Positions 34,364 to 60,264 of a DNA stretch of 60,264 nucleotides are shown piece by piece (position 1 is the first letter of the stretch; each line of letters opens with the position of its first letter). Under the pieces are notes generated by a model. That model searched no databases and had not been told where the DNA came from. It worked only from the letters and a program-made list of their open reading frames with translations. The DNA comes from Leucosporidium creatinivorum (taxonomy: Eukaryota > Basidiomycota > Microbotryomycetes > Leucosporidiales > Leucosporidiaceae), in assembly GCA_001600635.1 (NCBI GenBank), contig BCKL01000046.1, positions 1-60,264 of the forward strand. The letters are read 5' to 3'. Made by a program: the position numbers and the translations under genes.

Positions 34364-34613
34364 GTGAAGCGAGATGAAGGGAAGAGAAAGGATGGAAAGC
34401 CTGGGAGGCGCCTCTTTTGAGTGGGGGAGAAATCGCCGACAAGTGCCCGAGCCTCTCTCTACGTAAGGCGACAAGTCCCCGAAGCGGCAGTGGACGCCGC
34501 CGTAAGGTCAAAAAAAGACGAGGCTCGAGAAGCGGCAGACCCAAGTCGGCAGAACGGAGGAATGATTTCTCGCCGAGGGTTATCGGCTGAATCGCTGGGA
34601 AGACGGTACTCGA

Positions 34614-36537: not shown

Positions 36538-37444
36538 ATGGTCTCAACACCGGTGCTAGTCACCTCCGCAACCCTGCGTCAAGGCCGGCGCCACCTGCTC
36601 GGCGTTCTCAGCATCCTCGATCTTCTCTGGCTCAACCCTCACCCAGACATGGACCCAGAAGCTCTAGTACACCGGGAGAAGACCTCCGTTCCCTCGGAGC
36701 TTGTTGCTCGTAAACTCTACAAAAGCGTGCAGGCGCTTTTGGAGACAGTCACTGACGGGCAGGCTGCTTCGGAGAGTTGGATTGTCAGCCAGAAGAAGGA
36801 CGCGACGGCGGCGTTGCGAGCGTACAACAACGTATTTGCACCTGAGAGACCGCTTCTGTTGGTGAGCTGCCTCCTTCTTGCTATCGGGCTTGACCTCGGC
36901 GTTCAGCGCAGCGCTGCGCTGACCCTGTCTTTCGCACAGCTCTACAGAGCCAACGCCCAGCAGCTTACAGCGAGGTTCAACATCCCCGTCGACGAAGACC
37001 TCCCCGTCCTGCGAGTGACTTCTAGGGAAGCTAGAAGTCACTCGGCGCATCTACCTGGCTCTGTACGAGGAGGTGAGTTCGGCGTCGAGTTCGAACGCTC
37101 GCCCTCTGCTCGCGACGCTGAACTCTCGCATCCCGCATCTGCACGCTTACAGAGGCTCGTTAGTATTGTGCCAGGACGAGAGCCTAGGCAGTTCAAGAAG
37201 AGGACTCAGTCTCCGGCTCGAGGCGCCCAGCATCATGCTTTGACGGGCAGCCAGGTGAGCCAAGTTCTTCCTCTCAGTCTGCTCGTCTTGCAGGGTCTTA
37301 GCTAATCTGACTTCTCTGTGACGCTAGGTAGAGCACAGCCTCGGCGCTCATCAAACCTCGACGCAAACGAGGAGGCAGCTTGCGCTCGACCGAGCCGAGC
37401 GGGCGGGAGGGATCTTTTGGCCGAGGGCGAGGGGTGATGCGTAG
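36538..37444 (+). pseudogene. small-protein family member 3, frame-damaged
   Basis: Most diverged of the four paralogues. Exon 1 is 36538-36861 (108 codons; LLGVLSILDLLWLNPHPDMD). Exon 2, 36940-37072, begins LYRANAQQLTARFNIP. It should be 114 nt as in the other three copies but is 133 nt. The extra 19 nt lie in a perfect palindrome (37014-37042) and change the frame before EVTRRIYLALYEE, which survives in another frame. Exon 3 (about 37151-37254) and the last exon still end QLALDRAERAGGIFWPRARG-DA. Unless unusual splicing removes the insert, the protein is broken. The gene is host DNA. Confidence 0.7.
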
Positions 37445-37828
37445 AGGTGGAGGTTGGGATGCTAAGCGGAGGCGACAGAATGTGTTCCGCTGCAGTTGAA
37501 CTAACAAATATGCTGCTTAACCAAAGAGAGGGCGAGAACGGCTCGGCGCTCATCGGGCCAAGTCCGAGCGCCGATCTCACGCTTTCTGCTGGTCACGTCT
37601 CGACATGGACATTGCCTCTGGTTCTTTACTTTCCCTGCTTTCCCTCGTCCCTGCGCCTGTGCCTTGGCGCATGCAGCAGAGCCTCACGTTTCATCGCCTC
37701 GGTCTGGCTTCCCCGGGGTTCGGCGACGGGCCTCCACCCTCGCTTTCCTTGGTCACTCCTCTCGCCCTCTCCTTTCCTCTTTCCCTTTCTTCTCTTGCTC
37801 TTTGTTTTTTCTGCAACCCTCCCTCTTG

Positions 37829-38685
37829 ATGGCCCCCGCACCTACTCTCGCCTCGCTCGAGCACCACCGAAACATCCTCGACGCGGTGCTCGACATCCTC
37901 CACGACCTGTGGCTCTCCAACCCTCCCGAGATTGAGAAAAACCTCATCATACCAAAAGCCAAACACCAGAAAGAGACGGACTCGCAGAGTCTGGCTGCCG
38001 AGATCAGTGAGAAGGTATTGGCCATGCTGCTCGTTCACTCGGCGAACATCAATGCGGGGTGGGTCGCAGGGCACCAAGTTGAGGTGAAGAAAGAGTTGAA
38101 GCGCTATGAGAATGTGCATATGAAGGGTCGCGCCCTCGCCAATGTGAGTCCTTAGACCATCGCCCCGGAGCTCGACGTGCATGCTGACGAGCCTCGAGGA
38201 AGCTCTACGACGCCAATCGCTATGAGCTCGCCATTCGTTTCAGCTTTATCCCTGAAGCGGGGGTGTTGTCAGCCATGGAGATCACTCGCAGGCTCACTCA
38301 AGCTCTGCGCGACGAGCCCGAGGCTAGTCGAGCATTATCTGGAGCCAGAGCAAGGCAAGAAGAAGCTGACCTTTGACCTTACCACCACTGGAAGGCCCTG
38401 AACACCATCAACAAACTTACTGGATATGCTCGGAAGCGCATGACTCGCCGTCGGGTTGAGTCGGCTCACGTCGCAGGACAGGCCGAAAGCAGTGGCCATG
38501 AGGGGGTGCATTCTCTTCTGCACTTCAGTCTTTCTCTCGAGGACGAGCTGAACCTTTGATCTCCTCTTCAGGCGCACAGCCTCGGCGCTCATCACACCTC
38601 GGCCCGCTCGCGACAGCAGTTGGCGCTCGACCGAGCTGAGCAGGCGGGAGGGGTCTTTTGGCCGAGGGCAAGGGGTGACGAGTAG
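37829..38685 (+). pseudogene. small-protein family member 4, splice donor lost
   Basis: Tandem with member 3 and closest to member 1 in exon 1 (37829-38143; 105 codons, LASLEHHRNILDAVLDILHD, LWLSNPPEIEKN). Exon 2 starts at 38203 (LYDANRYELAIRFSFIPEAG, AMEITRRLTQALRDE). At 38317, where members 1-3 have a GT donor, the sequence is CCCGAG, so the second intron has no normal donor. A cryptic GT lies about ten bases on. Exon 3 (ALNTINKLTGYARKRMTRRR) and exon 4 (QLALDRAEQAGGVFWPRARG-DE) are well preserved, ending at the TAG 38683-38685. It may be recently inactivated or use the cryptic donor. Confidence 0.65.
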
Positions 38686-39296
38686 AGGTGGAGGTTGGGA
38701 ATTCAATGATCCTAGTCGAGGGCTTCGATGCTGGTCAAGATGGTCGAGTCGAGCTTCCCTGCGAAGGAGAGCAGCTCGGCGCTCCTCCCACGTCCGGTTC
38801 GTCGAGTTGAGAGAAACTGCAAGAGTGGGGAAGAGAGAGTGGGTCAGCGGGAGCTTCTGAAGCCTTGGAAAGTTGATTGGGTCTCCATTCGAGAACGGTG
38901 AGAGCCTCTCGGCGGGCTACAGAGCCTCACTACTCTGCAGCCCGACGAACGCCGAGATCAGCTTCCAAGACCGCTTTCGAGCCAGCAGGGCGAAGGATAT
39001 ACTCTTCAGTAGATCAAGAGAGCTACTCACCTTGCTCAGACTCCCTACGAGGCGCTCAAGTCGGCTCGTTCCAATTCCAGCTCCGCTCGAGACGCGTCGA
39101 GCGGTTGTAAGAACATCGAGAAGGGTGCAGGCTGAGTAGGGCGAGCTGTAGTCCAGTAGAGAAGCACTCTTCGAGTTGGAGCGGAGTAAAGAAGTCGAGC
39201 GAGATGTAGTCTAAGCTCAAGCCTTCAGAACGCCGCGCGGGGCCTCTTCCACATCTCTCCCTCTCGCAAATCACCGCCTCTTCACCTCGACTCGAA
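38686..39296. other. intergenic, no supported gene
   Basis: About 600 bp. Only short frames without splicing support are present. It probably includes the promoter of the transporter gene at 39297. Confidence 0.45.
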
Positions 39297-42770: not shown

Positions 42771-45700
42771 ATGGTTACCTTCCTTCCACCACCTTCACTC
42801 TCCTCCTCTGCTTCTGCTGTACCTCATCAACACGACCACGACCACGACCACTCGCACCATTCCCACGACCATCAACACGCTCCTTCAACCGCGGAGGGAG
42901 ACGATGGGGAGGGCTTGACAGAGAGGGAGCGTTTGATCAAGGAACATGGTCATGATCATAGTGGCATGGAATTCGTCGGTCAGTCCCTTTCTCTTCTCTC
43001 TGTAGCCTTCTCGTCTCGCCTACAGTGGGGGTCGCACCTCTCTCGACCTCAAGCTGACCACCGGAGCTGCTGCAACTACAGGCAAGTTCGCCGAGCGGGA
43101 TCTTCCTGATTTCACGGGCAGGAATTGGCAGGAGAGGGGGTTCACTATCGGTATTGGAGGGTACGTTGCCAGCTCATCTCTCTCTCTCTCGCGTCTCCCT
43201 TTCCCTCTGGCGCTCTCTCTGAGCTGGGCTTGGGCGCTAGCTGATCTGAATCTCTTACATCACTTCCTTCGCTCCCTGCTCCCCCTCACTGCTCCCTACC
43301 TCACCCACTCGCTCGCCGATCGACACATGCTCGCTTCACTCGCTCCACCACGACCAGACCCGTCGGATCAGGCAAGACGGCCCTCACTTTGGCGCTCTGC
43401 AAGAGGTTCAGGGATGAGTACAACATTGGTGTGTCTATCCTATTCATTCTCTTGTGCTGGTGGGCTGGGATGGTCGGGCTGGAGCTGGAATTGAGTTGGA
43501 ACTGAGGGAGTAGTAGGGCACCAGGGAAGGCAGGACAGGTCAAGCGGCTGCTCATCGTTGAGAGACGGTGGGGAGCTGCTTGATGAGGTCATCGCCGAAC
43601 CTTGTGCAGAGTCGAGCTGCCAGCTCTCCGAAGGAGCAGAGGGCTTCGAGGAGTTGCTCGCTCTCGGCTGAGGTCTTCGGTCGGCACTACCGAGTAGTGT
43701 GGACCGGGCCTCTTCATGTTGGAGGTGGGTACTCTTTGTGATAGTCTGGCGCTGGCTGCGCGATGGAGCATCAGAGCTCGCCGAAGCACGGGGGAGCTGA
43801 GAGCTTCTCGGAGGAAGGGGAGTCTGAGCAGCTCTTTGCCGCCGCACAGTGGCGGGGACGCTGCTCTATACGCGGCCATCCTTCTCGACGTTCTGGTGCT
43901 GCTCGTGCAGCTCGGCAATCTCGGCTCGGAGATGCTGGGCAAAGAGCTGCTGACGCTCGGCTGAGATTGCGATTCGCGCTGCTGGCAGTACGGGTCGAGC
44001 TTCTCCAAGCCGGAGGTGACAGGTGCTTTTGATCTTTGCCTGCCTGCTCGTTCGGGTGGTAAAGCGTATGGGGCTGCAAGACCCAATGGGAAGGCGGGGA
44101 GCGAGAGCACCGGGTTGAGTAGCTGTTCGCTGTCTTGAGGCGGCGTGGAGCTGGTCTATAGTCCAGTTCGGACTCGCTACAGTTCACAGGAGCTCAAGGA
44201 TTGAGCAGATGAGTAGATGAGCACGGAGGGCGGCTGCTCGCGCTCAGCTGAGGTCTCGGTCGGCGACCTGAGGGTCGTGGACCAGGCTTCTGGATCGGAC
44301 GTAGACTAGCTGTGCCGCATGATGCAAAACTGGTCACCTCCCTCTATTGGCAAAGGGGAGGATCAGCCGTAAGATTAGCGCTTCGATTCGTCCTCCTCGC
44401 TCGAAGGTGCCGGCTCTCAAGGAGGGAGCTGGTGCTGCCTTCGTGGACGAGCGCAGGATGCGAGTGCTCTCTTGACGGACGTGACTCGTCCAGTCTGAGA
44501 GGTCGAGGCGCAGCGGAGCAGTATCAGGCAAGGAGGGGACTTCGCTCGCTCTCGGTGGCTGTCTCGTGCTCGTTCAACGGACATGAGGCGTCTTCGTACG
44601 AGGATAGGCGTGTCTCTTCCCTGCGTGGTCTGCGCGCTTCCAGCTTGCCTTTCAGCAGGACAAGGCGCTGTCTGTGCGGCCGAGTTGAGCACGAGCCGAG
44701 CCTGACCTGACGGTCGGCGAGCTGAGCAGATGATTCGTGAGGCAGAAGCTTTGCGGGTCGGTGCTCTGTGCTTGTTCCGTCGCGGTCTCTGCTCTCACCT
44801 CGCAGGCGCAGATCTCAGCTCTCGTACGCGTCTCAGCTTGGCTCGGAGCAGCCCATTCCGCTCAGAGGTCCGCTTCTCGTCGAGTCCTCGACGAGGGTGG
44901 ACACTCTGTGCCGCGCTGTATGAGCTCTCTCTATGCTGCCCCTGTGGCGCAGTCGGTCACGCTGGTGCAGAGTCGCGACGGCCGAGGGATCGCTCTCGCT
45001 TCTAGGCTCGCTGCTGCTTCCTCGAGGGAGGCGGCGTGGGTTTCGTGCATGGACGCAGAAGTTCCTTTGCACTGCACTACCTCAACCGCTGTTGCCATTG
45101 TAAACGGGGGCGCACTTCGCGAGGCGAGCAGCGTCGGCATGGACAGCGCTGGGTTCGACTTCGAGATCCACTTCGTCTTTGTGTGAGACGGAAGGGGTCC
45201 TCGATGAAGATGGCCCACATTCTTGCTTTTGTGGAGCTTGGGCCGAGCTGTGCGCGGACTTGCCGCTCAGCGCAAACGGACAGCACGCCGAGCTGGGCGC
45301 CGAGGGTCGAGCAATGGCGTTGACTGAGCGGCTGTTTGTCAGAGGTTCTCTGGTGGACTCACGCCCTACTGCTAGCAACTGCGAGCCCACTAACGCCGTC
45401 TCAACGTCTCGGCTCTGATCTTCTCGCTCGAGAAACCCGCGCGGAGGTCACTCGCCGAGCAGCGAGTGACGAGGGCTAGTGAGCTGGACTTTGCGATGGG
45501 ACACCTGTCGCGGGGTCTGTCTCTGGTCGAGCCGTCCTCTCGTGTCCTGTGCCACCTTGCATCTCGCACGGAAACCCGGCCAGCGGAGACAGGTCGACTC
45601 GCTTGAGGTTGCGCCGAGAGTGCCGAGGGGCGTTCTCGGGCAGTTGCTTGAGGCGGATGAACGCCTGCTTCGCTCCGGTATCAGTCTGTGCAATGAAGAA

Positions 45701-47443
45701 GTCCAGCCGTGGCAGAGGAGCGGCGCGACCTCGGCAGGCAGCTCGGCGCTCACTTTGCTGGCGGAGTGGGCGTCGGCTGCCTTAGCTTGAGGTCTGCGTG
45801 CTTCTCCAAGCTTTTTCAGCTTGTTTGAATCCTCGAACAGAGACTGGAGGTCCGGCGTGTGGTACAGCGTACCTCGCGAGCGGCGTCAGCTCGCCCTCAG
45901 TGGGTGCTGTTTTGCTCGATTGACGAGTCGGCGACGTTGCCTGTACGCTCGGTCGCGACTACTAACGCTCTCGGCTAGCTGCTGATCGAGTGGCGGGGCA
46001 TTATGATCACCCCGCCGGGTGACGGAGGAGCGGCGCCGAGCAGGTGGGCTTTGAAGCGTGGCTTCGCGGCTTGCTGCTCTTCGCGCCATCGTGCAGCGCT
46101 TCCCCCGGAGACCTTCGTATTAGCAGCTGTGTCGTGCCATGTGCAAGCTAGTCTGGAACAGAACGCTGACTTTCCTCACGCTTCCCTTCCCGCTCGCTCT
46201 CCCTCCCTCCTCCGCCTCCGCCACCCCTCTCTCCTCGCCCTCGCCCTCCACTTACTCCCCGATAGGCGTCGTCACCAACGACATCTTTACCAAGGAGGAC
46301 CAAGAGTTTCTCATCCGCAACGAGGCGCTCGCGGACAAGGGCCGCATCCGCGCCATCGAGACGGGAGGATGCCCGCATGCTGCTATTCGGTGAGTGGTGC
46401 TCTTTTTTGAATCTCGTAGTACGTTGGGGTGAGACGGTGAGAGCTGATCGTCTTCCTCCGTCGCTCCCTCGTCGCCTTCCTCTCGCCTTCCCTCCGTCTC
46501 CGACTCGACACAACCGCCTCGTCAACCACAGCGAGGACATCTCGGCCAATGTAGGAGCGCTCGAGGAGCTGCAGGCGGCCTACGGGTGCGAGTTCCTGGT
46601 AGGTCTCGGCGCTCGCTTCGGCTGAAGCTGCTCGCTGACCCTTTTATCTGGGAGCAGCTCGTCGAGTCAGGTGGAGATAACTTGGCTGGTGAGTTGCCTC
46701 CCCTATCGACTCGAGTCGCACTCGCAGAAGCTCGTGCTGACGCTTCTTCCCGCCGACAGCCAATTACTCGCGCGAGTTGGCCGACTACGTGAGTCGCTCG
46801 CTGCTCCGCTCTCGTCGCGCTCCACCCTCGTTCGTCGCTGACTTCCTCACCATTCACACCTACAGATAATCTACGTTGTACGTTCTGCCCCTTCCTCCCC
46901 TTCTCCTCGCTCGGCGCTGACCTCTTTCGCCGAATCCCTCCTCAACCGCGCAGATTGACGTCTCCGGTGGCGACAAGATCCCTCGCAAGGGAGGACCAGG
47001 AATCTCGCAGAGTGATCTGCTCATCGTCAACAAGGTACGCTCTTCCGACTCGGCCGAGGAGTAGGATACGAGAGCTGACCTTCCGCTCCTTGCTCCTCCA
47101 TCCTCTCCGCTCGCCGAACCCCCCGACTCATCTTATCACATCCTGACTCTGCTCGCCCATCACTCCCAACCTTGTCGCCGACCGCACCCGATTGTCTTCT
47201 CGCTGCCATCGCTCTCTCCCGCTCTCCTTCGTCCCCCTCGTCTGCCCCCTCCACCCTCCTTTCCCTCAGATCGACCTCGCCCCCTACGTCGGCGCCTCCC
47301 TCGAAGTCATGCGCCGCGACGCCGACAAGATGCGCGATGGAGGACCCACCCTCTTCACCAGCGTGCGGAACGAGGTGGGAGTTGAGGGAGTTGCGGAGTT
47401 GATTATTGGGGCGTGGAAGGGTGCTACTGGTGGGAAGAAGTAG
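42771..47443 (+). CDS. UREG: urease accessory GTPase UreG
   Basis: SIMIBI-class GTPase that delivers nickel to apo-urease together with UreF and UreD/H. Ten exons, checked for phase, give 291 residues: 42771-42978, 43082-43160, 43358-43428, 46266-46389, 46532-46598, 46658-46688, 46760-46788, 46866-46877, 46954-47034, 47270-47443. The N-terminal ~70 residues hold a His/Asp-rich nickel-binding stretch ([18 protein letters not shown]). Then come [20 protein letters not shown] (P-loop), [25 protein letters not shown] with the nickel-binding [50 protein letters not shown] and [17 protein letters not shown]. All key residues are present. Intron 3 (43429-46265) is 2,837 nt, and exon 8 is a 12-nt microexon. 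The last 63 nt of the gene are repeated in inverted orientation at 57108-57170. Confidence 0.96.
43429..46265 (+). other. 2.8-kb intron 3 of ureG
   Basis: The donor G|GTGTGT follows ...DEYNI and the acceptor CCCCGATAG precedes GVVTNDIF, so UreG is in phase across it. The first ~1.2 kb is repeated at 5284-6520. Open frames on both strands (for example a shared antisense [20 protein letters not shown]) lack splice or domain support. No transposase, reverse transcriptase or clear terminal repeats were seen. Confidence 0.85.
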
Positions 47444-48220
47444 AGTGATGGAAATGTCTTGAATGCTCTTCTCTTGGTGTTGAGGTTGCGGAGAGCGCAG
47501 AAAGAGGCCTGAGAGGAGAGCTCAAGGAAGGCAGAGCTGAGCAGGTGGAGACAAGCAAGCAGGCAGCTGTAAGGAAGCTTGAAGCCCTGAGAATACTGTC
47601 AAGGCTGATCAGTGAGAGGAGGGAATGCAGAACGGTACAGCTTGACATGTGAGGAGCTTGCCGCCCGCAACACCAAAGCTAGTGTGAACGAGGCTGACCT
47701 CCAACTGAGGCAAGGCAACCTGTGGGTAGCTCGACAGGTAGACAGACTGCAATTGCACCGCTGGTGTACTCGACTGAAGCCAGGAACCGGCAGCAATTGG
47801 GAAAGGCAAGCAAAGTGAGGAGAAGTGATCTTTGCAGCACCGAGGGTGCTCCGAGAAGCCCCTGGAGCCAGCCAGCTGCGCCATAGCAATGTCCTACAGC
47901 TTAAGGGTGACTGAAAATAAAAAGTAGCCTCCTGGGTGTGGCAGGAGGCAAAAGAATGATTCGTAGCGACGTTGGCAGGACTCGAACCTACGCCCTCAGA
48001 GAGGATCAGCTAATCGGTAATACCAATTCTAGGCTGACGCAGTAACCACTTTGCTACAACGCCTTTGCTTGTTGTAAAAAGCTTGCCTGTAGCCATCCTT
48101 ATTCTCACTGGCTGAAGCAAGAGAGATCAGTTCTGGCGTGAGGGCCGAGGAGGATCTCCGGGGAGGCTGAACATGATCTTGTGCACCTAAATCAACAATC
48201 TCAGCCTGTAGTGTGGTAAA
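47380..48220. repeat. left arm of ~840-bp inverted repeat
   Basis: Reverse complement of 56330-57170. It starts inside the last exon of ureG (GTTGAGGGAGTTGCGG...) and includes the ureG 3' flank, tRNA-Ser(AGA) and ~150 bp upstream of the tRNA. The central part (47599-47889) matches the other arm without any difference in translated frames; about four mismatches occur in the outer 130 bp. Arm ends are given to within about 10 bp. Confidence 0.92.
47967..48063 (-). tRNA. tRNA-Ser(AGA): tRNA-Ser (AGA), intron-containing, left copy
   Basis: Acceptor GGCGTTG/CAACGTC with one G-T pair; A box TAGCAAAGTGG; anticodon stem TCAGC/GCTGA; loop CTAGAA giving AGA at 34-36; 15-nt intron after position 37; long variable arm CCTC-TCT-GAGG typical of serine; T arm GTAGG-TTCGAGT-CCTGC; discriminator G. 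It lies in the left inverted arm and is identical to the copy at 56487. Confidence 0.93.
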
Positions 48221-48325
48221 AGGGGAAGGTGGATCTGCTCAATGCTGCTACAGTGTCGCTCTTGCTCTTCCCTGCCAGCACCGGGGACTCGGGAGGCACC
48301 TTCTTCTGGTGCATAGCTCTAGGGG

Positions 48326-48550
48326 ACGCAGTAACCACTTTGCTACAACGCCTTTGCTTGTTGTAAAAAGCTCGCCTGCAGCCATCCCCATTCTCACCGG
48401 CTGAAGCAAGAGAGATCAGCTCTGTGTCGAGGGCCGAGCAGGATCCCCGTGAAGGCTGAACATGATTTTGTGCACCTAAATCAACAATCTCAGCCTGTAG
48501 TGTGGTAAAAGGGGAAGGTGGATTTGCTCAATACTGCTACAGTGTTGCCG
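48326..48550. repeat. direct repeat of the tRNA-Ser 5' half and its upstream flank
   Basis: Repeats about 48030-48250 in the same orientation with ~90% identity. It contains the 5' ~28-38 nt of tRNA-Ser (reverse strand, GACGCAGTAACCACTTTGCT then ACAACGCC), breaking off around the anticodon. It then continues through the same flank (CTTGTTGTAAAAAGC, GGCTGAACATGAT, AATCTCAGCCTGTAGTGTGG) and on past the inner end of the inverted arm. Confidence 0.85.
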
Positions 48551-50575
48551 TTCTCCGACGCTCTTTACCCCTACAGGACCGCTCACGAGGTTCCCAAGGG
48601 AACGAGCTCGGTGATCTCTCGTTTGCTGCTTGCTTCAATCCACTCGACTTGAGTAAGCTCCTCCCGTCTCGCCTTTGCATGCAGCCTAAACAAAAGGCCT
48701 GGCTCTCCCAGAGCAGGGCAGTAAGCCTCATACAGAGCTACTCTTCATTGACGTCTTGAGCTCCTACAGATGCAGACGCAAGAGAGCGCAGGTCAGCGGA
48801 TTTGTTCTGGACACCTTGTGCTCATGCAGCGCAAACAAGGCAAGAGCTCACCGGAGACCGTTGACCCAACGCCTCAGCTCCCTCTCCAAGCTGAATACCG
48901 ATGCCGTCGACGGCAGGTAGCTCGTCATTGGCGCTGTACGAGAGAAGAGTGAGCAATGTAAAGCAAGAAGCTATGAGCAAGAACCGCACCTTCGTCCGAA
49001 CACACCATCGACCGCCCAGCACGAGACGGCCACCAGAGGGAAAGGCTGGCTTTGAGCGAAGGATGTATGGCGCGAAGCAAGGATGAGTTGCCGCTCCTCA
49101 AAAAAGAGACAAGCGTCACTCACACTCAGTCCTCGGCCGTAATGCGCCAACATCGTCTCGCATTGTCTCAGCTGTCCCAGGGAGCTGTGCCCTCCTCTGC
49201 TGAACAGCCCTTGGGCTTCCCTTCTTGCCCCAAGACGTATGCGACAGCCCCCTCAATACCAGCAAGTGATGGCCCGCTCCACCGAGGAAGCCTATGCGCC
49301 ACCGAGTGAGCGCTAATTAGCGGCGAGCCCAACAACACTGAGCATTGTCTCACTTGCAGAGAGTTGGTTAAAGGTACACCATCCCACTGGCAACGATAAC
49401 AGATTGAGGTACAGATAAGACGAGGAAGGAGCTGTAAGTGCAGTCGGGGTACAGCTAGGCGGGCTGGAAAGGCGTGAAAGAAGAGGTGCCAAGGTGCGAG
49501 AAGCAGAAGGCCGAGGCGAGGGGGAGCTTGGCAATGGATTGACAGGGTGGCGTACGTGGGGAATGCTGTAGCGAGACGGCGGCTGGAGTCAGCTCTCTGA
49601 TCCCCTCCTACTCGCGAGCAAGCCGGAGACGATGAGCACACACCTCGAGACTAACATCATCAACTCCGCTCAACACAGCTTATCAATATCAGCTCAAAGC
49701 AGGCAGAATCTACAGCCGTGCTTGTTTCGTTGCCATGGTCCGAGTAGCCGCCTATCGAGCTCCAAGGTCCAACCGTCGAGCACACCTTTGTGATAAGCAG
49801 GCGAGGGAACTGCAAGCGCAGGCAGGCTGGCAGGTGGAGCACGTGTACGTCTGTAGTAGATGCAATCAGCTAGCTGCCCTTGTACGCCTCTGCGGGGCAG
49901 CGCGCTGACCTTCAGCAACTCAAGGCTCGAACCGAGGGCTGTAGCTCACCATGCGCTTCCCACGTATAATCTACAGCGTAGCTCTCTGATCGTGGCTGAC
50001 AACCTGCTCCCGTACGTTGTCCTCCTGAGTTGTCCTGCCCTGTGAGCAAGTGTTGTGATGAAAGTTCCAGTCGTTCGAGCTGGCTCTGGCTCCAGGTTGC
50101 TGTAGCCAAGTAGTCTCCAGCTCGCCCGCATTGTCGAAGAGAGCTGCCCTCGACGGAAGGCGCAGCTGAGGGCATTTAAGCCGCTTGAGATGATAGGAAG
50201 AAGAGCGGTGTCAGCTCGACTTTCGGACTTGAAGCTTGAAGGCGGGCAAAGGGCTCGCTCTCGGTCGCCTACTTGAGCTGTTCAGATCTCTCACTGGCAA
50301 ATCAAGATGGGCAGTGATAGACCGTGTTACTCAACTGTACAACCCTTGTAGTTCTCTCGCAAGCCGACGCAGTTCAAGAGCGACCCTCTTCTCCAACTCC
50401 TTCTCCCTCCTCTTCAACTCGCCCAAGGCCTCTACCGCATCCTCAGCAGGAAGCTCCTCACCTCCCACCACAACATCAACAGCTCCTCCTTCCTCCCCCG
50501 ACCCGCACTCCATCGCCCTGGCGCCGGCGCCGAGCTCCTCCCCCTCCCACTCGGCCGCGCCCTCGTCATCCTCCT
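48551..50575. other. left part of the accessory block, no supported gene
   Basis: About 2 kb with short frames on both strands, none with a coherent exon chain or recognisable motif. A Pro/Ser-rich frame at 50236-50598 on the plus strand mirrors a Glu/Gly-rich minus frame; neither is convincing. Confidence 0.4.
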
Positions 50576-51760
50576 CTACCTCCAAGCCTCCGGCCTGACA
50601 CGACTCCTCTCAAAGACTGCCTTTGCTGGATCCGACTTGCCCGTGGTGAACCTCCAGGTGGCGAGGTGGGTGCGAAGAATGAGGGTGGCGGGGAGGGAGA
50701 GGAAGGAGGTAAAGTCGGCGGATAAGAAGGCAAACTCCTTCCTCTTCTCGGCGTGGTTGTTGTCATGCCTTGGGAACTCGGACGTAGCGGTGAAGGAGTA
50801 GCCTGTGCAGACATCCGAGGGTTTGCACGTCCAAAGCCGAGCTGTTGCTGCCTTCCTCGTGGTCCCCTTGGTGGCGCTCGTGGTGCTTGGCTGCTGGGCG
50901 TCTTGTGCAAGCTTGAGGATCGAGCTCGCCGCTGGGCCGGTTGACCACAGGGGAGCCAGGCAACGAGAGATCATCTCGGCTCCCACTGCCGAGCCGTCTC
51001 GAGCGGTGATGAGAGGGGTAGGGGTGAAGCTGGCGAGGTGGAGGAGGATGCGAGCAAAAGCTTGGTGCTCAAGCCATTGACGCTGCTGATCTGACTCCTC
51101 GCTGGTCGCCGTTGGAGGGAGAACAGCGAAGTAGATTGCGCCGAGGTCCTCGTCGATGGCCTCGAGGTCGCTGAGGTGGCTCCGCTCTGCGTCGGAGAAA
51201 GAAGCGAAGAGGGCTTCCGGTGTTGCCTCCCGGATGATGTTGACCGTTCAAGCTTCCTGCCAGCCTGTGGGCAGCTCCGCACCGATGAGCTCATCGAGCT
51301 GAAACGGGTAGAAGATGTACACCTTCTCCATTGAGGCAAGCGTGCAGGGGCGGTGGGAGCTGGATGGGTGACGCCGCCGTTGGTAGGTGGAAAGGCGGGA
51401 GGAGGGGGCTTTGGTGGTGGCAAAGGGGCTCGAGGAGGGGAGCTGAGGAGGAGGGGCGGCGGAGAGACAGGGACAGCGATGGCCCGAATTCTCCCCGCCG
51501 ATGACCTCCTCACCGCAATCAAGGCAGGTGAGGAGGATGACTCCATCCCCAACAGTCATCCTTGCCCGCTCGTAATCGTCCAAACGAGTCAACGCCTGCT
51601 CGTAGGTCATGGTTGACGTCCACTGCCCGCGAAGGTCGAATCCTACACGCTTGCGGACCTCCTGGAAGGCAAGCAGATCCCTCTCAGAGAGGTGGAGGAG
51701 CGGGCGGCGTCCGTAGGTGAGGGCTGAGCGGAAGAGGTTGGTGCTCTCCTTGCGCGAGAG
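50576..51760 (-). pseudogene. element protein with Cys-cluster, unrecognised
   Basis: Minus-strand coding sequence in host-like codons. The upstream part reads LSRKESTNLFRSALTYGRRP, LLHLSERDLLAFQEVRKRVG and TYEQALTRLDDYERARMTVG, then a possible zinc ribbon, LLTCLDCGEEV...GHRCPCL. The downstream part (about 51240-50578) reads VNIIREATPEALFASFSDAE, RILLHLASFTPTPLITARDG and WRFTTGKSDPAKAVFERSRV, ending in TAG. The two parts are probably one protein, and the frame is interrupted. I know no family for it. Confidence 0.5.
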
Positions 51761-52045
51761 CAGCTAGTCCTTCCAGCCCGAGCTCCCCACGACGGTTGAA
51801 GCGGGCGAGGAAACGGCGATGAGGGAGGAGGGGAGCCCATGGCGGGACTGGCACTGATAGCTGGGTGTCCCTCCGCCTTCTCGGCTGCGTCGTTCCAACT
51901 GCAGAGGGAGTAGGTTAGCTAGCAGGCCCTAACGCAACACCGAGAATAGTGGGAGTAGGAGAAGAAGCAGGAGAGACTCACTCTTGAACGACAGTCGAGA
52001 ACCTGACACCTCGAGCTTCGGCTCGCTCGCCCCTAATCTCCTCCT

Positions 52046-53973
52046 CTACTTCCTCCCACCGTTTCCCCTCAGCTCCTTCTCCCATCCTCTCCCCCCCAAT
52101 GCCTGCACTTTCCTATCCTCTCCACTCATCACTCGAACACTCCGCAACGCGCCCACATGCTCGACCAACCAACTCCTCTCCTCCTCCATTGCCTCGCTCA
52201 ATCCCACGGCTGCGGCCACGTCCTCGACCATGACGCGAACGGCAATGCTGGAGTCCTTGTCGTCCGTCGGCCGGAGTGCGTTGACAACGGAGAGGAGGAT
52301 CTTGCCCTTGAGCGTGGCGAGGGAGAGCATGTTGCGGTTAGCGAGGGTGGAGACCGTGTCGTATGGAGCCGCTCCGCCACGGAAGGAGAGGATAACGTTG
52401 CGGAAGTGGCCGACGGCGAGCTCGATGGTGATGATACGGCCGACGTGGTGGGAGAAGTCCCAAAGAGGGACGTCGTGCCAGGATGGGAGGTTGATGTCGG
52501 CGATGAGGAGGTGGAGGCAACTGAAGTCTTGACGGACGACAACAGCTTCCCAATCATCTGGGCCAATGTTGCTGCAGAAGAGTGAGGGGAGGATGCCGGA
52601 GGTGAGGAGTTGGGCGAGCTGCGAAGGAGGCGGATCAGCGAACCACTCGGCGGGAGAGTGTAGAACGGATACAGAGAGAAGGAAGGCTGAGAGATGAAGA
52701 TCAATAGAGAAAGAGACATACCTTGGCAGAATGGACCACGAAGCCACGAGCATTCCATAGTTGCAGAAGCCCGAGGACGAGGAGGACAAGGACGAGGCGA
52801 AGCTCGCGGTGGCGAAGGATGATATCCCATAGATCAATGAGTGCGCCGAACGCTTCGGTGATCTCATCATAGTCCATCTCCTCCGGCCGCGGTCCATCGA
52901 GGTGGTCCTTGGCGAGTCCTCGGGCGAAGACGAGCAGTCGGTGGAGGAGGTTGGGGGCTGGACCAGCGGTGTTGGCCCAGAAGCGAATCCTAGGGTGCGC
53001 ATGCTCTTCGACGGTGATGTCCTTGAGAAGCGTGATCCGCTTGACGTAGCCGTTGTTGGAAATCCTCACCGCCGCCGAGCGTCGAGCGTCGAGCGACATT
53101 GTCCAATCTCCCCCGATCGATCGTTGGCCCTCCATCTCCTCGCCCCTTCCACATCTCATCCAGCAACTTGAAGCGTTTCTTGATCGCGTCCTGCACCTCG
53201 TCCTGGGGCTTTCGCTGCTCCCGATTGCTCAGCGGTTGGCGGTCATCTGTGTGGGCGCAGGCGAGGGATGGAGAAGGAGGGGAGAGAGATGGTGACGAGG
53301 GGGAGGAGAAGGTTGTGGGGGTGGTCGGGATGTGGGCAGAGAGGGAGCGCTGGATGGGACGGCAAGTGACCGTGGCTTGAGCGTTGGCGAGTTCTTGCGA
53401 GAAGCGAGGATCCGAGCGAAGGTCGAGCTGTTTGACGGAGTCGCGGAGGGCGAGAAGGTGAGGACCGGGGAGCATGGGCTCCCTCAAACCTCCGGCTGCC
53501 GTATTGAAGCCCGCGAGACCCATGCAGGTGACCATCATTGACTCAAGAAGGTCCGTCGCGGGGTGGCAGCGAAGGGCGGCGGAGGTTGGGAGGGAGGGAT
53601 CAAGCGACCAGAGACCCTCTGCATTGTTGAGGTGGAGGTGGTAGACATCAAAGTCGTCCTGTAGGCCGTTTGTCTTGATGAACGCCTTGAAGGAGGTGGT
53701 ATCGGCGCCAACCACGTCCTCGTCTTGACGGTCCTGCCCGATGCAGCCATCTCGTCCGAGGATACCAGCGTAGATGCGAGTAGCTGGGTCTTGGTCGTCC
53801 CGATTGTTGAGGGTGGAGAGGTAGGGACTTTGGTTGAGGGAGTAGGCGGGTGGCTGGAGAGTGTCGCCGAGAAGGTCGACGCAGCTCAGGCTTCGGCGCA
53901 GGAAGCTGGGGAAGCGGGGAATAAGGGGATTTTGGTGGTCATGGGTTTCGGAGTGATTTATCCCCTCGCACAT
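52046..53973 (-). pseudogene. element protein, unrecognised, spliced or broken
   Basis: Three successive frames with good codon use: about 53973-53160 (DVYHLHLNNAEGLWSLDPSL, LLESMMVTCMGLAGFNTAAG, QDEVQDAIKKRFKLLDEMWK), 53159-52722 (RISNNGYVKRITLLKDITVE, LLHRLLVFARGLAKDHLDGP, LVLVLLVLGLLQLWNARGFV) and 52620-52046 (LAQLLTSGILPSLFCSNIGP, ADINLPSWHDVPLWDFSHHV, ELAVGHFRNVILSFRGGAAP). A plausible intron with GTATGT and CTTCGCAG ends joins the second and third. One hydrophobic stretch could be a membrane helix. No family is recognised. The relation to the flanking recombinase is by position and strand only. Confidence 0.5.
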
Positions 53974-54056
53974 CTTCGCATAGCATCATTCCCTTCGCCT
54001 TCTCTCGCTCTCGTTCGGAAGTCATCAATGGACTGGGTTTTTCGTCTCTTGTCTTC

Positions 54057-54151
54057 GTACTTCTCGCACCGTACTAAGACTCGTCGGACCCAGGTGTGTA
54101 GTTCATGCAACTTGGTACTTCTCGCACCGTACTAAGACTCATTGAACCCAG
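54057..54151. repeat. 37-bp direct repeat pair
   Basis: 54057-54093 and 54115-54151 share GTACTTCTCGCACCGTACTA followed by AGACTC and ACCCAG, with three mismatches, separated by 21 bp. Each copy contains two GTAC words spaced by 10 bp. The pair lies between two element coding blocks. Confidence 0.8.
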
Positions 54152-54232
54152 CGAATCCTTGTCTTTCGTATCAGAGAGGAGGGTCTCGACTTGTCGACGA
54201 GAGTCGGTGACGGTGCCGAGGAGTACCCGTAG

Positions 54233-55231
54233 CTAGAGGAGTAGAGTGGCGGGGGAGGAGGATGGGGAGTTGCTGGTGAATACGTCGGCCTCATCCGTTG
54301 TGGTCGCCCCCTTGCTCTCGACCTTCTCCTCCTCCTTCTGCTCGGTCGACGCCAAAGTCTCCCACTCTCCCTCCCCGTTCTCATCCGTAACCTCACTCTC
54401 CTCCGCCCCAAAGCGACTCTTCCATTGCAGCTCCTCCTCTCCGACCATCGCTACCCCCTCCCCTACTTCAACATCCTCCCCCACCCGAACTCCTTTGCTG
54501 GTGACGAGCTGCAGCAACGGCGAAGACGAGGGGTCGAACGAGTGCGGGTCTCGGGCGAGGTTGAGGCAAAGCTCGACTAGATCAAGATGGCAGCTGAGGT
54601 AGTCGTAGAAAGGACCGGAGCGGGGGAAGGGGGAGCGGCTGAGGTGCGAGTTGCGGGCGTCGAGGATGAGGAGTAGATGCTCAAGGGAAGAGATGTCGGG
54701 CGGCAGGTTCTGAATGAGCTTGTCGAGCTCCTGCTGCTGTTCCCGGCGCTTCATGGACATCTGGGCAATGACGTCCATCCTCTTCTCGAATACAACTTGA
54801 CGCTGACGTCCTGACTCGACGCGCTCCTCCTGGGTCCGCCTCTGCTTGTACTGAGCCGTCGATGTGGTGGCACGCGGTCGAGCCTCAAACTCCTGGGCCT
54901 TCTTCTCCTTCCTCTTCCTTGTCTCCTTCTTGGCCTTGGGCTTCTTGCCCGCCGAGCCGCTCGGTCCCGCCGGTGCAGGAGGATCAGGTTTGAAGGGCTC
55001 GTCGTGCGCCTCGGTAGCACGCTTCCTCTTCTTCTGCCTCTTAGGAGGAGGCAGGTCAGAGATCGGAGGAGGGGCCGGAGGAGGGGCCGGACCAGGAGGA
55101 AGGAGGGCATCGGGAGGAGACAAATTGAAGGGAGCGAGCGACGCGAGCGAGTCCTTGTGGACGGCCAAACGAGGGTGCTTGGAGCGAGAAGATCTCGCCC
55201 TTGGAGGAGGAGAGGACGGGGTCCCTCCTTG
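54233..55231 (-). CDS. basic coiled-coil protein in the element, unrecognised
   Basis: Open frame of ~330 residues preceded by an acceptor-like TTTGCAG at about 55232. Upstream exon(s) may lie at 55270-55360, so the start is unknown. The order is a Pro-rich segment, strongly basic patches (PPKRQKKRKRATE, KKPKAKKETRKRKEKKAQE) that look like nuclear localisation signals, and a charged coiled coil (QRRTQEERVESGRQRQ, MSMKRREQQQELDKLIQNLP). A helical stretch (SLEHLLLILDARNSHLSRSP, YLSCHLDLVELCLNLARD) and an acidic C-terminus follow. It could be a DNA-binding partner of the recombinase. That is inference. Confidence 0.5.
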   Translation of the reverse strand, partial: QGGTPSSPPPRARSSRSKHPRLAVHKDSLASLAPFNLSPPDALLPPGPAPPPAPPPISDLPPPKRQKKRKRATEAHDEPFKPDPPAPAGPSGSAGKKPKAKKETRKRKEKKAQEFEARPRATTSTAQYKQRRTQEERVESGRQRQVVFEKRMDVIAQMSMKRREQQQELDKLIQNLPPDISSLEHLLLILDARNSHLSRSPFPRSGPFYDYLSCHLDLVELCLNLARDPHSFDPSSSPLLQLVTSKGVRVGEDVEVGEGVAMVGEEELQWKSRFGAEESEVTDENGEGEWETLASTEQKEEEKVESKGATTTDEADVFTSNSPSSSPATLLL

Positions 55232-55525
55232 ACTGCAAATGGAGAGAAACACTCAGCGGGAGTCGTTCAGCAAAGCTTGCGACCAAGGCCTACCTCGAGG
55301 CGAGGGTCTGCAGGGGGAGACGAGTCGACGAGAAGGAGAAGTCCGATGTTGGTGCAGCTATTCACACAGCAAGATTAGCTATGTCGGGCACGGCAGAGTC
55401 TGAGCTGAGGGCCCCACTCACCCGCAGACTTGCGACGGTGTGAAGGCCTGTTTAGGAGGGGAAAGAAGTTAGCTCAAGAGTCGAGGAAGGAAGAGAGAGC
55501 AGCAGCTCACCCGACCGAGTTCGTA

Positions 55526-56337
55526 TCATCCTGCATCATGACGTCCTTGTCCTTGGTTCCATAGCGCATCTCCTACATATCCTCTCCTACTACGCACATA
55601 CAACTCCCACTTGTTGCTCTTCCATTGCCCGGCAAGCTTGACCACCTCCTCGGGCACGCCTTGGTTGAGCAAGAAGTTCGTTCCTCCGATGCGGAAGCTG
55701 TGTCCGGTAAATCGCTGTAGGCCTTCCGTCTGCCAAATCTGATTGACGCGCCTGAGGGAGACGTTGCGAGTCATTGGGACAAGCTTGTTCTTTGCGTTGA
55801 AGTACAAGAAGAGGTGGGCGTCGGCGGGCGCTGACTTGAAGACCATCTGCTGTAGGAGAGCTCGTTTTGGGTTGCACATTGAGTGGTCGATAAGTGCGAC
55901 AATCTGCTTCTTGTTAGGCTTCTTGGTCTTGGTCCACGGGAGCTCGATCTCCATCATCTTTCGTCCCTTCGGCGATGTGAACGAGGTTACATCGCTGCAC
56001 TTGACGTCTTCTTGGGGTTGAACAACTTCTGCGTCTCGACCGTAATTTCTCCTAGTTGGCAGACACCGTGGAAGGCAAGGAAGGCGCAAGCTTTGACGGC
56101 TACATCGAGCGACGATCTTCCGAGGTTCTTGTGGAGAGCACCGAGCATGGCGAGGGTGACGGGCGGGCAAGGGGGCTTCTGGTAGTCTGACCCTTTCCTC
56201 TTGGCAGCGCCTCTGAGCACCTCGAGCCAGTCAAACTCACCCTCTTCAGCTATCGGCCATGCGACGTGGTTGATCTTGTGCCACTTCTTGAGCGCCAAGA
56301 TATCCCTAACCCGACCCAACCCCTTCACCTGTACCAC
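55526..56337 (-). pseudogene. tyrosine recombinase (Crypton-like) remnant
   Basis: Integrase of the tyrosine-recombinase superfamily, which cuts and rejoins DNA through a covalent 3'-phosphotyrosine. The N-terminal part is RVRDILALKKWHKINHVAWP, followed by the core (ACAFLAFHGVCQLGEITVET, MMEIELPWTKTKKPNKKQIV) and the C-terminal catalytic box TGHSFRIGGTNFLLNQGVPE, VVKLAGQWKSNKWELYVR. The HxxR, the following W and the nucleophile-position Tyr are visible; the first catalytic Arg is probably in the GVCQLGE region and not certain. The frame is interrupted at least once, and the 5' end runs into the right inverted arm, so it is not functional as it stands. Which element class it came from cannot be decided here. 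Confidence 0.8.
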
Positions 56338-57170
56338 ACTACAGGCTGAGATTGTTGATGTAGGTGCACAAGATCATGTTCAGCCTCCCCGGAGATCCTC
56401 CTCGGCCCTCACGCCAGAGCTGATCTCTCTTGCTTCAGCCGGTGAGAATAAGGATGGCTAAAGGCAAGCTTTTTACAACAAGCAAAGGCGTTGTAGCAAA
56501 GTGGTTACTGCGTCAGCCTAGAATTGGTATTACCGATTAGCTGATCCTCTCTGAGGGCGTAGGTTCGAGTCCTGCCAACGTCGCTACGAATCATTCTTTT
56601 GCCTCCTGCCACACCCAGGAGGCTACTTTTTATTTTCAGTCACCCTTAAGCTGTAGGACATTGCTATGGCGCAGCTGGCTGGCTCCAGGGGCTTCTCGGA
56701 GCACCCTCGGTGCTGCAAAGATCACTTCTCCTCACTTTGCTTGCCTTTCCCAATTGCTGCCGGTTCCTGGCTTCAGTCGAGTACACCAGCGGTGCAATTG
56801 CAGTCTGTCTACCTGTCGAGCTACCCACAGGTTGCCTTGCCTCAGTTGGAGGTCAGCCTCGTTCACACTAGCTTTGGTGTTGCGGGCGGCAAGCTCCTCA
56901 CATGTCAAGCTGTACCGTTCTGCATTCCCTCCTCTCACTGATCAGCCTTGACAGTATTCTCAGGGCTTCAAGCTTCCTTACAGCTGCCTGCTTGCTTGTC
57001 TCCACCTGCTCAGCTCTGCCTTCCTTGAGCTCTCCTCTCAGGCCTCTTTCTGCGCTCTCCGCAACCTCAACACCAAGAGAAGAGCATTCAAGACATTTCC
57101 ATCACTCTACTTCTTCCCACCAGTAGCACCCTTCCACGCCCCAATAATCAACTCCGCAACTCCCTCAACT
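56330..57170. repeat. right arm of ~840-bp inverted repeat
   Basis: Reverse complement of 47380-48220. It contains the second tRNA-Ser(AGA) and ends with 63 nt of the ureG 3' coding end (inverted) at 57170, where similarity stops sharply. Confidence 0.92.
56487..56583 (+). tRNA. tRNA-Ser(AGA): tRNA-Ser (AGA), intron-containing, right copy
   Basis: Same sequence as the left copy, including the 15-nt intron and the serine long variable arm, but on the plus strand because it lies in the inverted arm. Promoter boxes A and B are intact. Confidence 0.93.
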
Positions 57171-57178
57171 GCAACTTG

Positions 57179-57200
57179 GCAAGGCGCGGCGGCGCCTTGC
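57179..57200. repeat. hairpin at the outer end of the right arm
   Basis: Perfect inverted repeat GCAAGGCGC / GCGCCTTGC with a 4-base loop, eight bases outside the arm end. Confidence 0.8.
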
Positions 57201-58297
57201 GACGCTTCCCTCAACTTTGGACTTAAAGACGTGCGGGCATTTGAGGGAAGATCCTTTTCTCTTTAGCTTGTTATACACACTACAGTCCTGTTATCTCGCG
57301 GTCCCAGTGAGGAGCACTAGAAACCCCGTGCTCCTTTCATTAACGCCCACCTTGTTGCGCACGCTGGTGAAGATGGAGCATGGTGTGGTGGGGAGTAAAG
57401 AGAGTGGTCAAGAGGAGATGGTGGGAGGAACAAGGCGCCAAGCTTGGCGGAGGCGGCGGGTGAGAGACTCAGAGGAGTGGGAGGAAGAAGGATTGAGGCT
57501 GAGGGGAGTGATTGCCGAGAAGGAACGGAGAGAGGAATTGAGGGAGCGCAGCAGAAAGAAAACGGGTGAAGGAAAAGGGGAGTAGGGAAGAGCCGTGGGA
57601 TGCAGAGGGACAGTGTGAGAAGGAGGGATCTGGAGATGTGATGGGAGCAACGAGGGTGAGGGAGGGATGAGGGAGCGGTGGCTGTGTCCGAGGGATGGAC
57701 TTTGAGGGCGAGCAGCTTCGAGCCTTTTCTCCTTCAAGGCTCATCATTTATTCACTGCTTGCTGGTCCTCTGCAAAAGTCCCTTCTTGAGAGAAGAGGAT
57801 TTTTAGGCAGGACTTTTTAGGGCACAGATTTGAGGGTGCTGGGCAATGCCTCTTAAAGGCCGTTTTTCTCTTTCTCTCTTGCCCTTGACAACCCTGCAAG
57901 CTCTCAGATCCACCCATGTTCTTGTGCTTCTAGACTTTCCGCGAGCTCCTAGTGCTCCCTCATCTCCCATCTCTCCCAACTTCACTCCTACTCCTTCAAT
58001 GTCTCCCTTTGTTGAGAAGTCGACAAGGTTCCTCTATCTCATCTAACTTCCCGTCCCCTCACTTTTGCTCTACCTGTCTTCCTTCACCTCCTACCCCTCT
58101 TTGCCAAACCTCGCCTCTCCCCCAAACTTTGCCCCGCTCCTTCCCTAGTCTCACTCTCTCCTAGTTTAGCACTCTCAATAGTTTCCTCTTGATTAGCTCT
58201 TCCACTCTAGTACTACTCTCTCCCTCACTTAGACCCACTCTTTGTGCCAGCAAGCCGGCAAACCATTGCTGAACCCCTCAGCTCGCCTCCCGCCAGC
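57201..58297. other. no supported gene
   Basis: 1.1 kb with simple purine- and pyrimidine-rich tracts. Frames here have no codon bias or motifs. Confidence 0.4.
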
Positions 58298-58379
58298 TCA
58301 TCCCTGCCTCAGCCAAGGCAGCACCGGTCTCGCTACTTCACCCAGGGACACCATACCAAGCGACTGACCAGGCCTTGAA

Positions 58380-58740
58380 GCTGAAGCAGCGCCGCCGACG
58401 ACACTGTAGTCTGGTAATCCGTCGAGGATCCGTAGCCGTAGGCCGACAAATCCCTGAAGGCAATTCCAGCCCTCCTGGCAGGGTTGTTGGGGTCCTCCAA
58501 CTGCATTGGAAGCATCAACTTGCTCCAAGCGCGAGCGCTGAAGTTCGGTGAAGCTGGGTCGAGGTGAGATCCTTCGGCGTGGTCGAAGGGGGTTTTGGGA
58601 CCTTCACCCTTGCTTGCTGAGCGCTGGGATTGGCGAGTGAAGGTGTGAGTGAGGTCGTGGACCTGCTCGTGCGGGAATGGCTGCTCTGCATCACCGGCGG
58701 TGGCCAAGGATGCGCTGCTGCCTGACGCAGAAGGGTCCAT
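58380..58740 (-). pseudogene. N-terminal fragment of a PDR-type (ABCG) multidrug transporter
   Basis: From the ATG at 58740 about 120 residues match the cytosolic N-terminus of pleiotropic-drug-resistance ABC transporters. They include a HEQVHDLTHTFTRQSQRS-type segment, LDPASPNFSARAWSKLML (the typical 'fs.r.w.k.ll' block) and RRAGIAFRDLSAYGYGSSTD followed by YQTTV. A full PDR transporter has about 1,400 residues with two nucleotide-binding and two membrane domains. Here similarity stops near 58380, and no Walker A, membrane segment or later domain follows. It is therefore a truncated gene fragment. Other PDR genes are presumably elsewhere in the genome. Confidence 0.75.
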
Positions 58741-60161
58741 CTTGTTGGATGACAGTTTGGGTGAGTGTTGCTCTTGTGACGCGCGAGTGAGGAGAGAGAA
58801 AGCGCGAGCCCAGTTTGCCCTCTCTAGAGCCCTTCAGAAGCGGCAGAGCTGAGCCGCCGACGTAAAACTGCTGGCTCCCAGCCGGGCTTCCGTTCGAGCA
58901 CGGCTCTCCAAGTTGACAAAGGTGAATTGCAATGGCCAAGGGAGTTGTAAGCAGGGTTCCCCGAGAGTGAGGTAGCAAGAGGAAGCCCCTGAGAGCAAGA
59001 AGAAAAGGAGGCGAGCAGCTTTGCCAAATCACCGAAATGCAAGAACTCGGCCTGTAGGTCCAGGCGAGTGCTCCGAGCTATAGTAGCAGGGTGAGCAGTT
59101 TACCATCTACCCTGCAGTGTGATGATGGCGTTAACGCTGCTTGCAATCTCTCAGTAAACTCGTTTACGTCCTCCGCCGAGCTGCTCAGACGTTGGCCTTC
59201 CTTATGCTCCCACCGAGGTCGAGGAGCGAGGGCTTCGGCTCGCTGTTCCGACATTTTCTTGGCTCACTTCTCCGAGATGTCAGAAAACGAATGCCTGGTT
59301 GGTCTTCTGTCATTTGGATGACTTCTGTGGAGGTGGGCGGTAAGAACCCCACTGAGCCGTTGCAGCTGTCGCAGAGCAAGGCCAACTGTCACGGTCTGCG
59401 CCGAGCAGCTGTCCGAGCAGCTGTCCTCTCCTGAATGAAGCACACTTTAATGGCTTGGAGGGTAGCTTCAGCTTCTTTAGCTTAGTCGCTTTTGAGTGTG
59501 TCCTCTTGAAGCTGGCCCGTGCATGTCAAAACGGCTCACGACGAGCCGGCCGGGGTGAGCGCTCTCACTTGGCTGACGTACTTCTGCACGAGCTCAGTCA
59601 GGTTTGTCAGAGGGTGTGTACTGCATTCAATTGACTTTGGTGTGATCTGTCAGACATCCCATTCAGTGAGCAGGCCGTTCCCTGGCCCTGCCGAGAGGTG
59701 ACTTGCGAAGCTTGTCGCTCTTCACCGGCACTCCCAACCTCAGGTCAGCTTCTCATCTCCTTGATGGCTACATTCCAGTGGAGTCTTGCCGTGTTTGCAG
59801 GCGCTTTCTACACCGTTCTGTACTTTACAAAGTCAGGTAAAGATGGACATTGGGCCGGTAGGGAAGCCGCCTTCCCAAGCGCCGAGCAGATGTCAAGCGC
59901 AGTCCTCCTGCTTGCATGACAGCTAGGTACGACAGCCCTTGCAGGATGATGAGCACCTCTTAAGTGTACTGTACCTTGACCAGGCTACGGTAGAGGTAGA
60001 GGTCAAAGAAGGTCAAAGGGCAGGAGCGGAAGGCTACCGTGCTCGGCGCCGGGCTGCGAGGGCGCGGAGCGCCCTCTGTGGGTCTTGTGGCGGGCCAGGG
60101 AGGTACAGGGTGCAAAAAATGAGTGTGCTGGGCTTGCCCAGCAGCAAAAGAGAAGTAAATG
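58741..60161. other. no supported gene
   Basis: 1.4 kb of short frames on both strands. Some lie next to splice-like sites, but no chain could be built and no motif is recognised. The part next to 58740 would be the old promoter of the transporter fragment. Confidence 0.4.
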
Positions 60162-60264
60162 CGACGTTGGCAGGACTCGAACCTACGCCCTCAGAGAGGA
60201 TTAGCTGAACTTGTTACTTGTAGTAAGCAATTCGAGGCTAACGCAGTAACCACTTTGCTACAAC
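60162..60264 (-). tRNA. tRNA-Ser(CGA): tRNA-Ser (CGA), intron-containing, cut by window edge
   Basis: Same body as the tRNA-Ser(AGA) genes, but the loop is CTCGAA (anticodon CGA), the anticodon stem is TTAGC/GCTAA and the intron is 24 nt. The first three bases lie beyond the window. The variable arm, T arm and discriminator are intact. Confidence 0.9.

Follow-up and report, generated by a model that had tools for sequence, protein, structure and literature searches.

A tRNA-Ser(AGA) gene of Leucosporidium creatinivorum with an inverted copy beside an LTR-like repeat: a probable repair-type duplication

Ty1 and Ty3 are long terminal repeat (LTR) retrotransposons which target genes transcribed by RNA polymerase III, while DIRS-like retrotransposons combine inverted terminal repeats with a tyrosine recombinase (YR). 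Tyrosine recombinases are also the captains of the Starships of Pezizomycotina, and integration by such an enzyme leaves short direct repeats at the ends of the inserted element. In excerpts of one report, Dada transposons, reported in fish, are described as targeting tRNA genes (PMC8869645). In excerpts of another (PMC5779705), the inverted duplications of yeast cdc73/tel1 mutants are attributed to hairpins or recombination; in the assay used there the second breakpoints are often at Ty delta (LTR) repeats, and tRNA genes are also sites of recombination. We analysed a stretch of 60264 nt from the basidiomycete Leucosporidium creatinivorum, called the window below, which is the complete contig C46 (BCKL01000046.1) of an assembly of 27.7 Mb in 63 contigs (GCA_001600635.1). 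The size of this genome and the presence of introns in tRNA and protein genes agree with a fungal origin. In the window two inverted copies, or arms, of a segment carrying a tRNA-Ser(AGA) gene and the tail of ureG, the gene of a urease accessory protein, enclose a YR fragment and a decayed gene (Table 1). We consider it probable that the right arm arose by an inverted duplication of the repair type, made at a breakpoint formed by an LTR-like repeat and a tRNA gene, and that the YR fragment is a bystander.

Walked base by base, the arms run from 47380 to 48218 and from 56332 to 57170 and are identical at 835 of their 839 positions; a repeat search placed them at 47375-48229 and 56321-57175 with a complementarity of 99%. 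When 20 first-order Markov sequences were made with the composition of the window, their longest exact inverted matches reached 14-20 nt; that of the window itself measures 709 nt. This means that the match between the arms is not due to chance. The two tRNA-Ser(AGA) genes are identical across 98 nt. Both were missed by a tRNA scan in bacterial mode and found with Rfam and with ARAGORN in its intron-aware mode; the right copy is probably an additional tRNA-Ser(AGA) gene, predicted to be a working one. The last exon of ureG matches the UreG chains 4hi0 (E = 3e-8) and 5xkt (E = 1e-5) in a phmmer search of PDB, and it is this match that settled its identity, a Pfam search of two short ureG exons having returned nothing. 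The right copy stops within this exon, and the left arm alone runs on into the remainder of it; hence, we concluded that the left arm is the source. A preliminary description of this DNA had already recognized the two near-identical inverted arms with their tRNA genes, the left one as the original context and the right one as an inverted copy, and our analysis bears it out; the ureG tail that it placed in the arms is there too, with a length of 64 nt instead of 63.

Table 1. Positions of the features discussed in the text (window coordinates)
Feature	Position	Strand	Basis
Last exon of ureG (urease accessory protein), stop TAG at 47441-47443	47273..47443	+	phmmer to PDB UreG; translation
Left arm (original context), with the end of ureG, tRNA-Ser and 155 nt of the flank 5' of the tRNA	47380..48218	+	repeat search, base-by-base walk
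tRNA-Ser(AGA), 15-nt intron, left copy	47966..48063	-	Rfam RF00005, 47.3 bits; ARAGORN with introns
Partial copy in tandem, made of the first 28 nt of tRNA-Ser and 5' flank; 92% to 48036-48259	48325..48548	-	repeat search
Decayed copy of a gene block of two open reading frames	50576..55252	-	tblastx to C24; in-frame stops
YR fragment in two frames, with Gln for the Arg of box I; apparently lacks its upstream part at the right arm	55526..56331	-	PF00589, phrog_1, comparison with C24 YR
Right arm: 47380-48218 copied in inverted orientation, with 4 mismatches	56332..57170	-	repeat search, base-by-base walk
tRNA-Ser(AGA), right copy	56487..56584	+	Rfam RF00005; ARAGORN with introns
Solo LTR-like repeat, TG..CA, no target-site duplication	57177..57339	+	interspersed-copy comparison
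Second interspersed repeat, about 73-79% to eight aligned copies	57809..58353	+	alignment
Duplicate (92-93%) of C19:56434-58411, about 1.9 kb	58361..60264	+	sequence comparison
tRNA-Ser(CGA), cut by contig end	60161..60264	-	ARAGORN with introns

The right arm, which repeats a neighbouring host segment almost unchanged in inverted orientation, sits between the degenerate YR fragment and the edge of the LTR-like repeat. Its outer end lies at this repeat: the 5' edge of the LTR-like copy, 163 bp long, is 6 nt beyond the end of the arm. No repeat is shown at its inner end. Copies of the LTR-like repeat span 157-163 bp and occupy nine distinct places in the genome, the duplicate on contig C45 being dropped. 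Flanks were read in three copies besides that of the window: exact 5-bp target-site duplications frame those on C19 (CCGCA) and C24 (CCCAG), four of five bases agree around that on C29, and the window copy has none (CAACT/TTAAC). Six of the nine places have a listed tRNA at 5 kb or less (P = 3e-9), or five of eight when the window is set aside (binomial P = 1e-7), as calculated with a limit picked after the data had been seen and with a tRNA list that gives a minimum, the tRNA-Cys of the window being absent from it. The calculation took 60 tRNA matches (63 minus three on C45), whose reach of 5 kb on either side makes up 1.8% of the genome. The distances between repeat and tRNA are 0.4-4 kb, and the three places away from any listed tRNA are C2:1597112, C20:564216 and C26:183563. 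With this enrichment near tRNA genes, the repeat is a candidate tRNA-targeting retrotransposon of this genome.

On the inner side of the right arm, 8.1 kb hold the YR fragment and the decayed gene. The fragment matches PF00589 with E = 1.9e-5 and 24.9 bits, which is below the Pfam cut-off of 27.1, and the phrog_1 integrase with E = 0.001; it has 0 matches in PDB at E 0.1. The two genome-wide searches led to a single further YR: PF00589 found the window locus alone (on C45 and C46), and the YR protein taken as query added a locus at 187 kb of C24, which matches a PHROG integrase (E = 1.7e-8) and no Pfam family. The two proteins have 21 of 39 residues in common around HxxR...W...Y, the motif region of tyrosine recombinases. 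The frame of the window fragment enters the right arm, and only 91 residues separate the edge of the arm from box I, against 128 residues from the STRRGY stretch, or 236 from the start of the frame, in the C24 protein; its upstream part therefore seems to be missing. The fragment also changes frame, and the Arg of box I on C24 (GVMRLGE) aligns with a Gln in the window (GVCQLGE). For these three reasons we consider it very unlikely, as far as can be judged from sequence, that the YR of the window is at present a working enzyme. An RNase H-like frame (PF00075, E = 2e-5; RVT_3, E = 1e-4) precedes the C24 YR and shares its strand, and C24:185787-188915, in which some letters are unread, presents itself as a DIRS-like element, RNase H followed by YR being an order which we take to be DIRS-like. 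An NCBIfam match of the YR piece to a UDP-N-acetylmuramate dehydrogenase model scores 14.8 bits where the cut-off is 224, and we attributed it to chance; a single-sequence structure prediction of the fragment, with a pLDDT confidence score of 34, was not used.

The decayed gene has its counterpart on C24 in two adjacent open reading frames, the first of which is unbroken and codes for 990 amino acids (C24:115777-118749). Over this first frame, tblastx pairs one frame of C24 with the window frames -3, -1, -2 and -3, in that order, so that the window copy has at least three frame changes; two of the four matched pieces contain an in-frame stop, and the amino-acid identity of the pieces is 39-59%. 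A search of the genome with the intact C24 protein yields two members, that of C24 and that of the window. Pfam matches of the block were weak, below the cut-off and without a usable name, NCBIfam gave none for the two C24 proteins, and viral contigs searched with the YR and with the 990-amino-acid protein gave no confirmed relative. The genome-wide YR searches revealed no YR next to the C24 member. The preliminary description had seen between the arms about 8 kb of minus-strand remnants with a tyrosine recombinase. Both the length and the recombinase stand, and yet this is not one element, because the greater part belongs to a decayed gene copy whose C24 paralogue has no YR found beside it.

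Our searches found two independent tRNA-Ser(AGA) loci in the genome, that of the window and C24:126239. At both of them the tRNA and the block share a strand, and the block lies upstream, ending 2.5 kb from the tRNA in the window and 5.8 kb from it on C24; a post hoc estimate puts at about 2e-4 the chance that a given paralogue would lie on that side at 6 kb or less. As the block has the same orientation at both loci, its linkage with tRNA-Ser(AGA) looks old. Taken with the 39-59% identity of the pieces, this argues either for an ancient duplication of tRNA and gene together or for a shared insertion preference. We infer a joint duplication, which is the simpler of the two, since the surroundings of the C24 gene yielded no recombinase and since C24:112000-131000 contains, among the best 12 short matches, no tRNA fragment longer than 14 nt besides the tRNA itself. 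In the window, from 48561 to 56320, none of the best 12 short matches exceeds 13 nt. The loci have no further neighbours in common over the 19 kb of C24 compared.

The duplication may be pictured in the following way. A break or a stalled fork beside the tRNA-linked LTR would have been healed by reverse copying of the nearby tRNA-Ser segment, either by template switch or by break-induced replication. The copied arm would have replaced whatever sequence once lay between the YR remnant and the LTR, and the event would have yielded the second tRNA-Ser(AGA) gene. The YR fragment would have been a bystander, apparently cut by the event. The block gene would have adjoined the tRNA beforehand, because the other tRNA-Ser(AGA) locus has the paralogue in the same relative orientation.

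Several points weigh against this reconstruction. The order of events is one that we infer. The adjacency of arm and LTR could reflect a later insertion of the LTR followed by the loss of one flank. The 5-kb limit behind the tRNA enrichment was, as said above, chosen with the data in view and applied to an incomplete list. That the arm cut the YR is deduced from length: upstream of the frame change BLASTP aligns residues 68-111 only. Finally, the region occurs twice in the assembly, which leaves the local quality open to doubt.

This last point raises the question of a mis-assembly. The first 60264 bases of C45 (80383 nt) are, letter for letter, the reverse complement of the whole window, and hence the stretch is present twice in the assembly; moreover the contig terminates in a tRNA-Ser repeat. 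Both facts would suit an artefactual origin of the inverted arms, which we nevertheless hold to be unlikely. With the partial tandem copy at 48325-48548 as outgroup, the four differences between the arms can be polarised: the left arm changed at 48109 and 48131, the right one at 48089 and 48190. This split shows that the arms diverged independently, and little, and that they are not assembly copies of each other, as two of the four differences arose in each. In addition, each junction is situated in other sequence, and an LTR devoid of target-site duplication adjoins the arm edge. By reasoning alone, a mis-join in the repeat could invert the 8.1 kb that the arms enclose, but not give rise to the arms themselves.

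It is likewise improbable that the arms are remnants of the two ends of a once longer, ancient palindrome or inverted segmental duplication, its centre having been lost or invaded. The arms are almost identical while the block between them has decayed, and the ureG sequence before 47380 does not recur on the right among repeats of at least 60 nt. What speaks for it is the arrangement of tRNA genes in the genome: all five pairs of same-score tRNA matches less than 10 kb apart, the window pair included, have opposite orientations, although an equal score is no proof of the same tRNA and the list is incomplete. The four other pairs are C13:197302/198151, C25:3/3193, C26:446844/451178 and C3:258651/263866.

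The preliminary description had explained the structure by integration or recombination at the tRNA-Ser gene. We retain the tRNA- and LTR-rich site as the place of a rearrangement; that a YR element integrated there, with the arms as its attachment or terminal repeats, seems to us quite improbable. It is true that the YR fragment is flanked by two tRNA-Ser copies, that the block paralogue is near both tRNA-Ser(AGA) loci found and that a short direct partial tRNA-Ser exists at 48325. However, the arms are inverted, 839 nt long and made of host DNA including ureG, where short direct repeats would be expected, and we rejected them as attachment repeats. A complete integrase is absent, the YR frame entering the arm, being split over two frames and having lost its box-I Arg, and the C24 copy of the block has neither a YR found beside it nor, as noted above, a longer tRNA fragment in its surroundings. 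A tandem duplication seems to account for the partial tRNA at 48325, because the 5' flank came along with it. We rejected this partial copy too as an attachment site, given this co-duplicated flank and the similar tandem units, with unrelated flanks, of the tRNA-Ser(CGA) loci on C19. The preliminary description had also suggested a search for further recombinase copies next to tRNA-Ser genes, copies at unrelated sites speaking against its explanation: the only one found, at 187 kb of C24, is 22 kb from the nearest listed tRNA (n = 1, and the list is incomplete).

The C19 units deserve a description of their own. Partial tRNA-Ser copies made of the first 28 nt and the upstream flank occur in tandem in the tRNA-Ser(CGA) arrays of this contig, at 58389/58718 and 162/494. 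Over the AGA and CGA loci the spacing is 289-332 bp, and the tRNA is broken at the same nucleotide in the two groups, despite their unrelated flanks.

A variant of the integration hypothesis supposes that a fungal element, built on the YR or on the gene block, homes to tRNA-Ser(AGA) and that recombination at the window locus also reverse-copied the tRNA with its flank. We regard it as highly improbable; if true, it would amount to a eukaryotic tRNA-site element, whereas to our knowledge elements of such kind are known from prokaryotes only. Least credible of all is a DIRS-like retrotransposon with the arms as its inverted repeats, for even though a YR does lie within inverted repeats here and an RNase H and YR element does exist at 187 kb of C24, the arms consist of ureG and tRNA sequence and cannot be DIRS terminal repeats since the left one runs on into the host ureG, an arm search of the genome gives, beyond the arms and their assembly duplicate, nothing except tRNA genes and the partial copy at 48318, and no reverse transcriptase or RNase H had a Pfam match in the nine block reading frames scanned (the spot upstream of the YR being now filled by the right arm).

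To the right of the LTR-like repeat, the second interspersed repeat shows no enrichment near tRNA genes, with one of its 11 other places at 5 kb or less from a listed tRNA; one further place has an unlisted tRNA-Val nearby. The end of the window probably joins the start of C19, to judge from the order of the array units, both lying within a tRNA-Ser(CGA) tandem array (window 58361-60264, C19:1-805). The C45 and C46 copies of the duplicated 60 kb both terminate in one tRNA-Ser(CGA) repeat. Between the left arm and the gene block, a stretch of 142 nt (48889-49030) is 73% identical to C42:4022-4174. Other diverged duplications exist in the contig: a direct one, 5336-6467 and 43422-44538, 38 kb apart and 75-91% identical, and an inverted one, 21437-23918 and 37328-38700, 70-92% identical. 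Among the 15 open reading frames scanned elsewhere in the window, the single significant Pfam family is that of a Gig2-like domain protein (PF07350, E = 3e-20) at 33581-34474 on the minus strand.

If the right arm was indeed produced by repair, the locus is a young and readable example of the duplication of a tRNA gene by reverse copying beside a tRNA-linked LTR. This route may be a general one, since the four other same-score tRNA pairs are inverted as well. A word of caution also follows: a YR found between two tRNA genes is not to be taken as a fungal integrative element.

Compared with the Starships, the locus has in common a fungal tyrosine recombinase, but no captain-type Pfam match was found in the nine block reading frames; in the part of the Starship literature surveyed, the phrase "tRNA gene" was not found. 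With DIRS-like retrotransposons it shares a YR related to the one which stands beside an RNase H in the same genome, but neither a reverse transcriptase nor an RNase H was found next to the window YR in these nine frames, and the arms are host DNA. The LTR-like repeat resembles Ty1 and Ty3 in that its family has 5-bp target duplications and is enriched near tRNA genes; it differs from them in that we identified neither an internal coding region nor an integrase, and in that its distances of 0.4-4 kb follow no fixed offset. The Dada transposons, as described in the excerpts cited above, offer a likeness as eukaryotic DNA elements at tRNA genes, with the difference that no Dada-like gene was identified here. 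The inverted duplications of yeast, as far as the excerpts of PMC5779705 describe them, were selected in an assay strain and are of chromosome scale, while the copy in the window is small and interstitial and its history is a reconstruction; what the two have in common is an inverted duplication with an LTR repeat at the breakpoint and the involvement of a tRNA gene.

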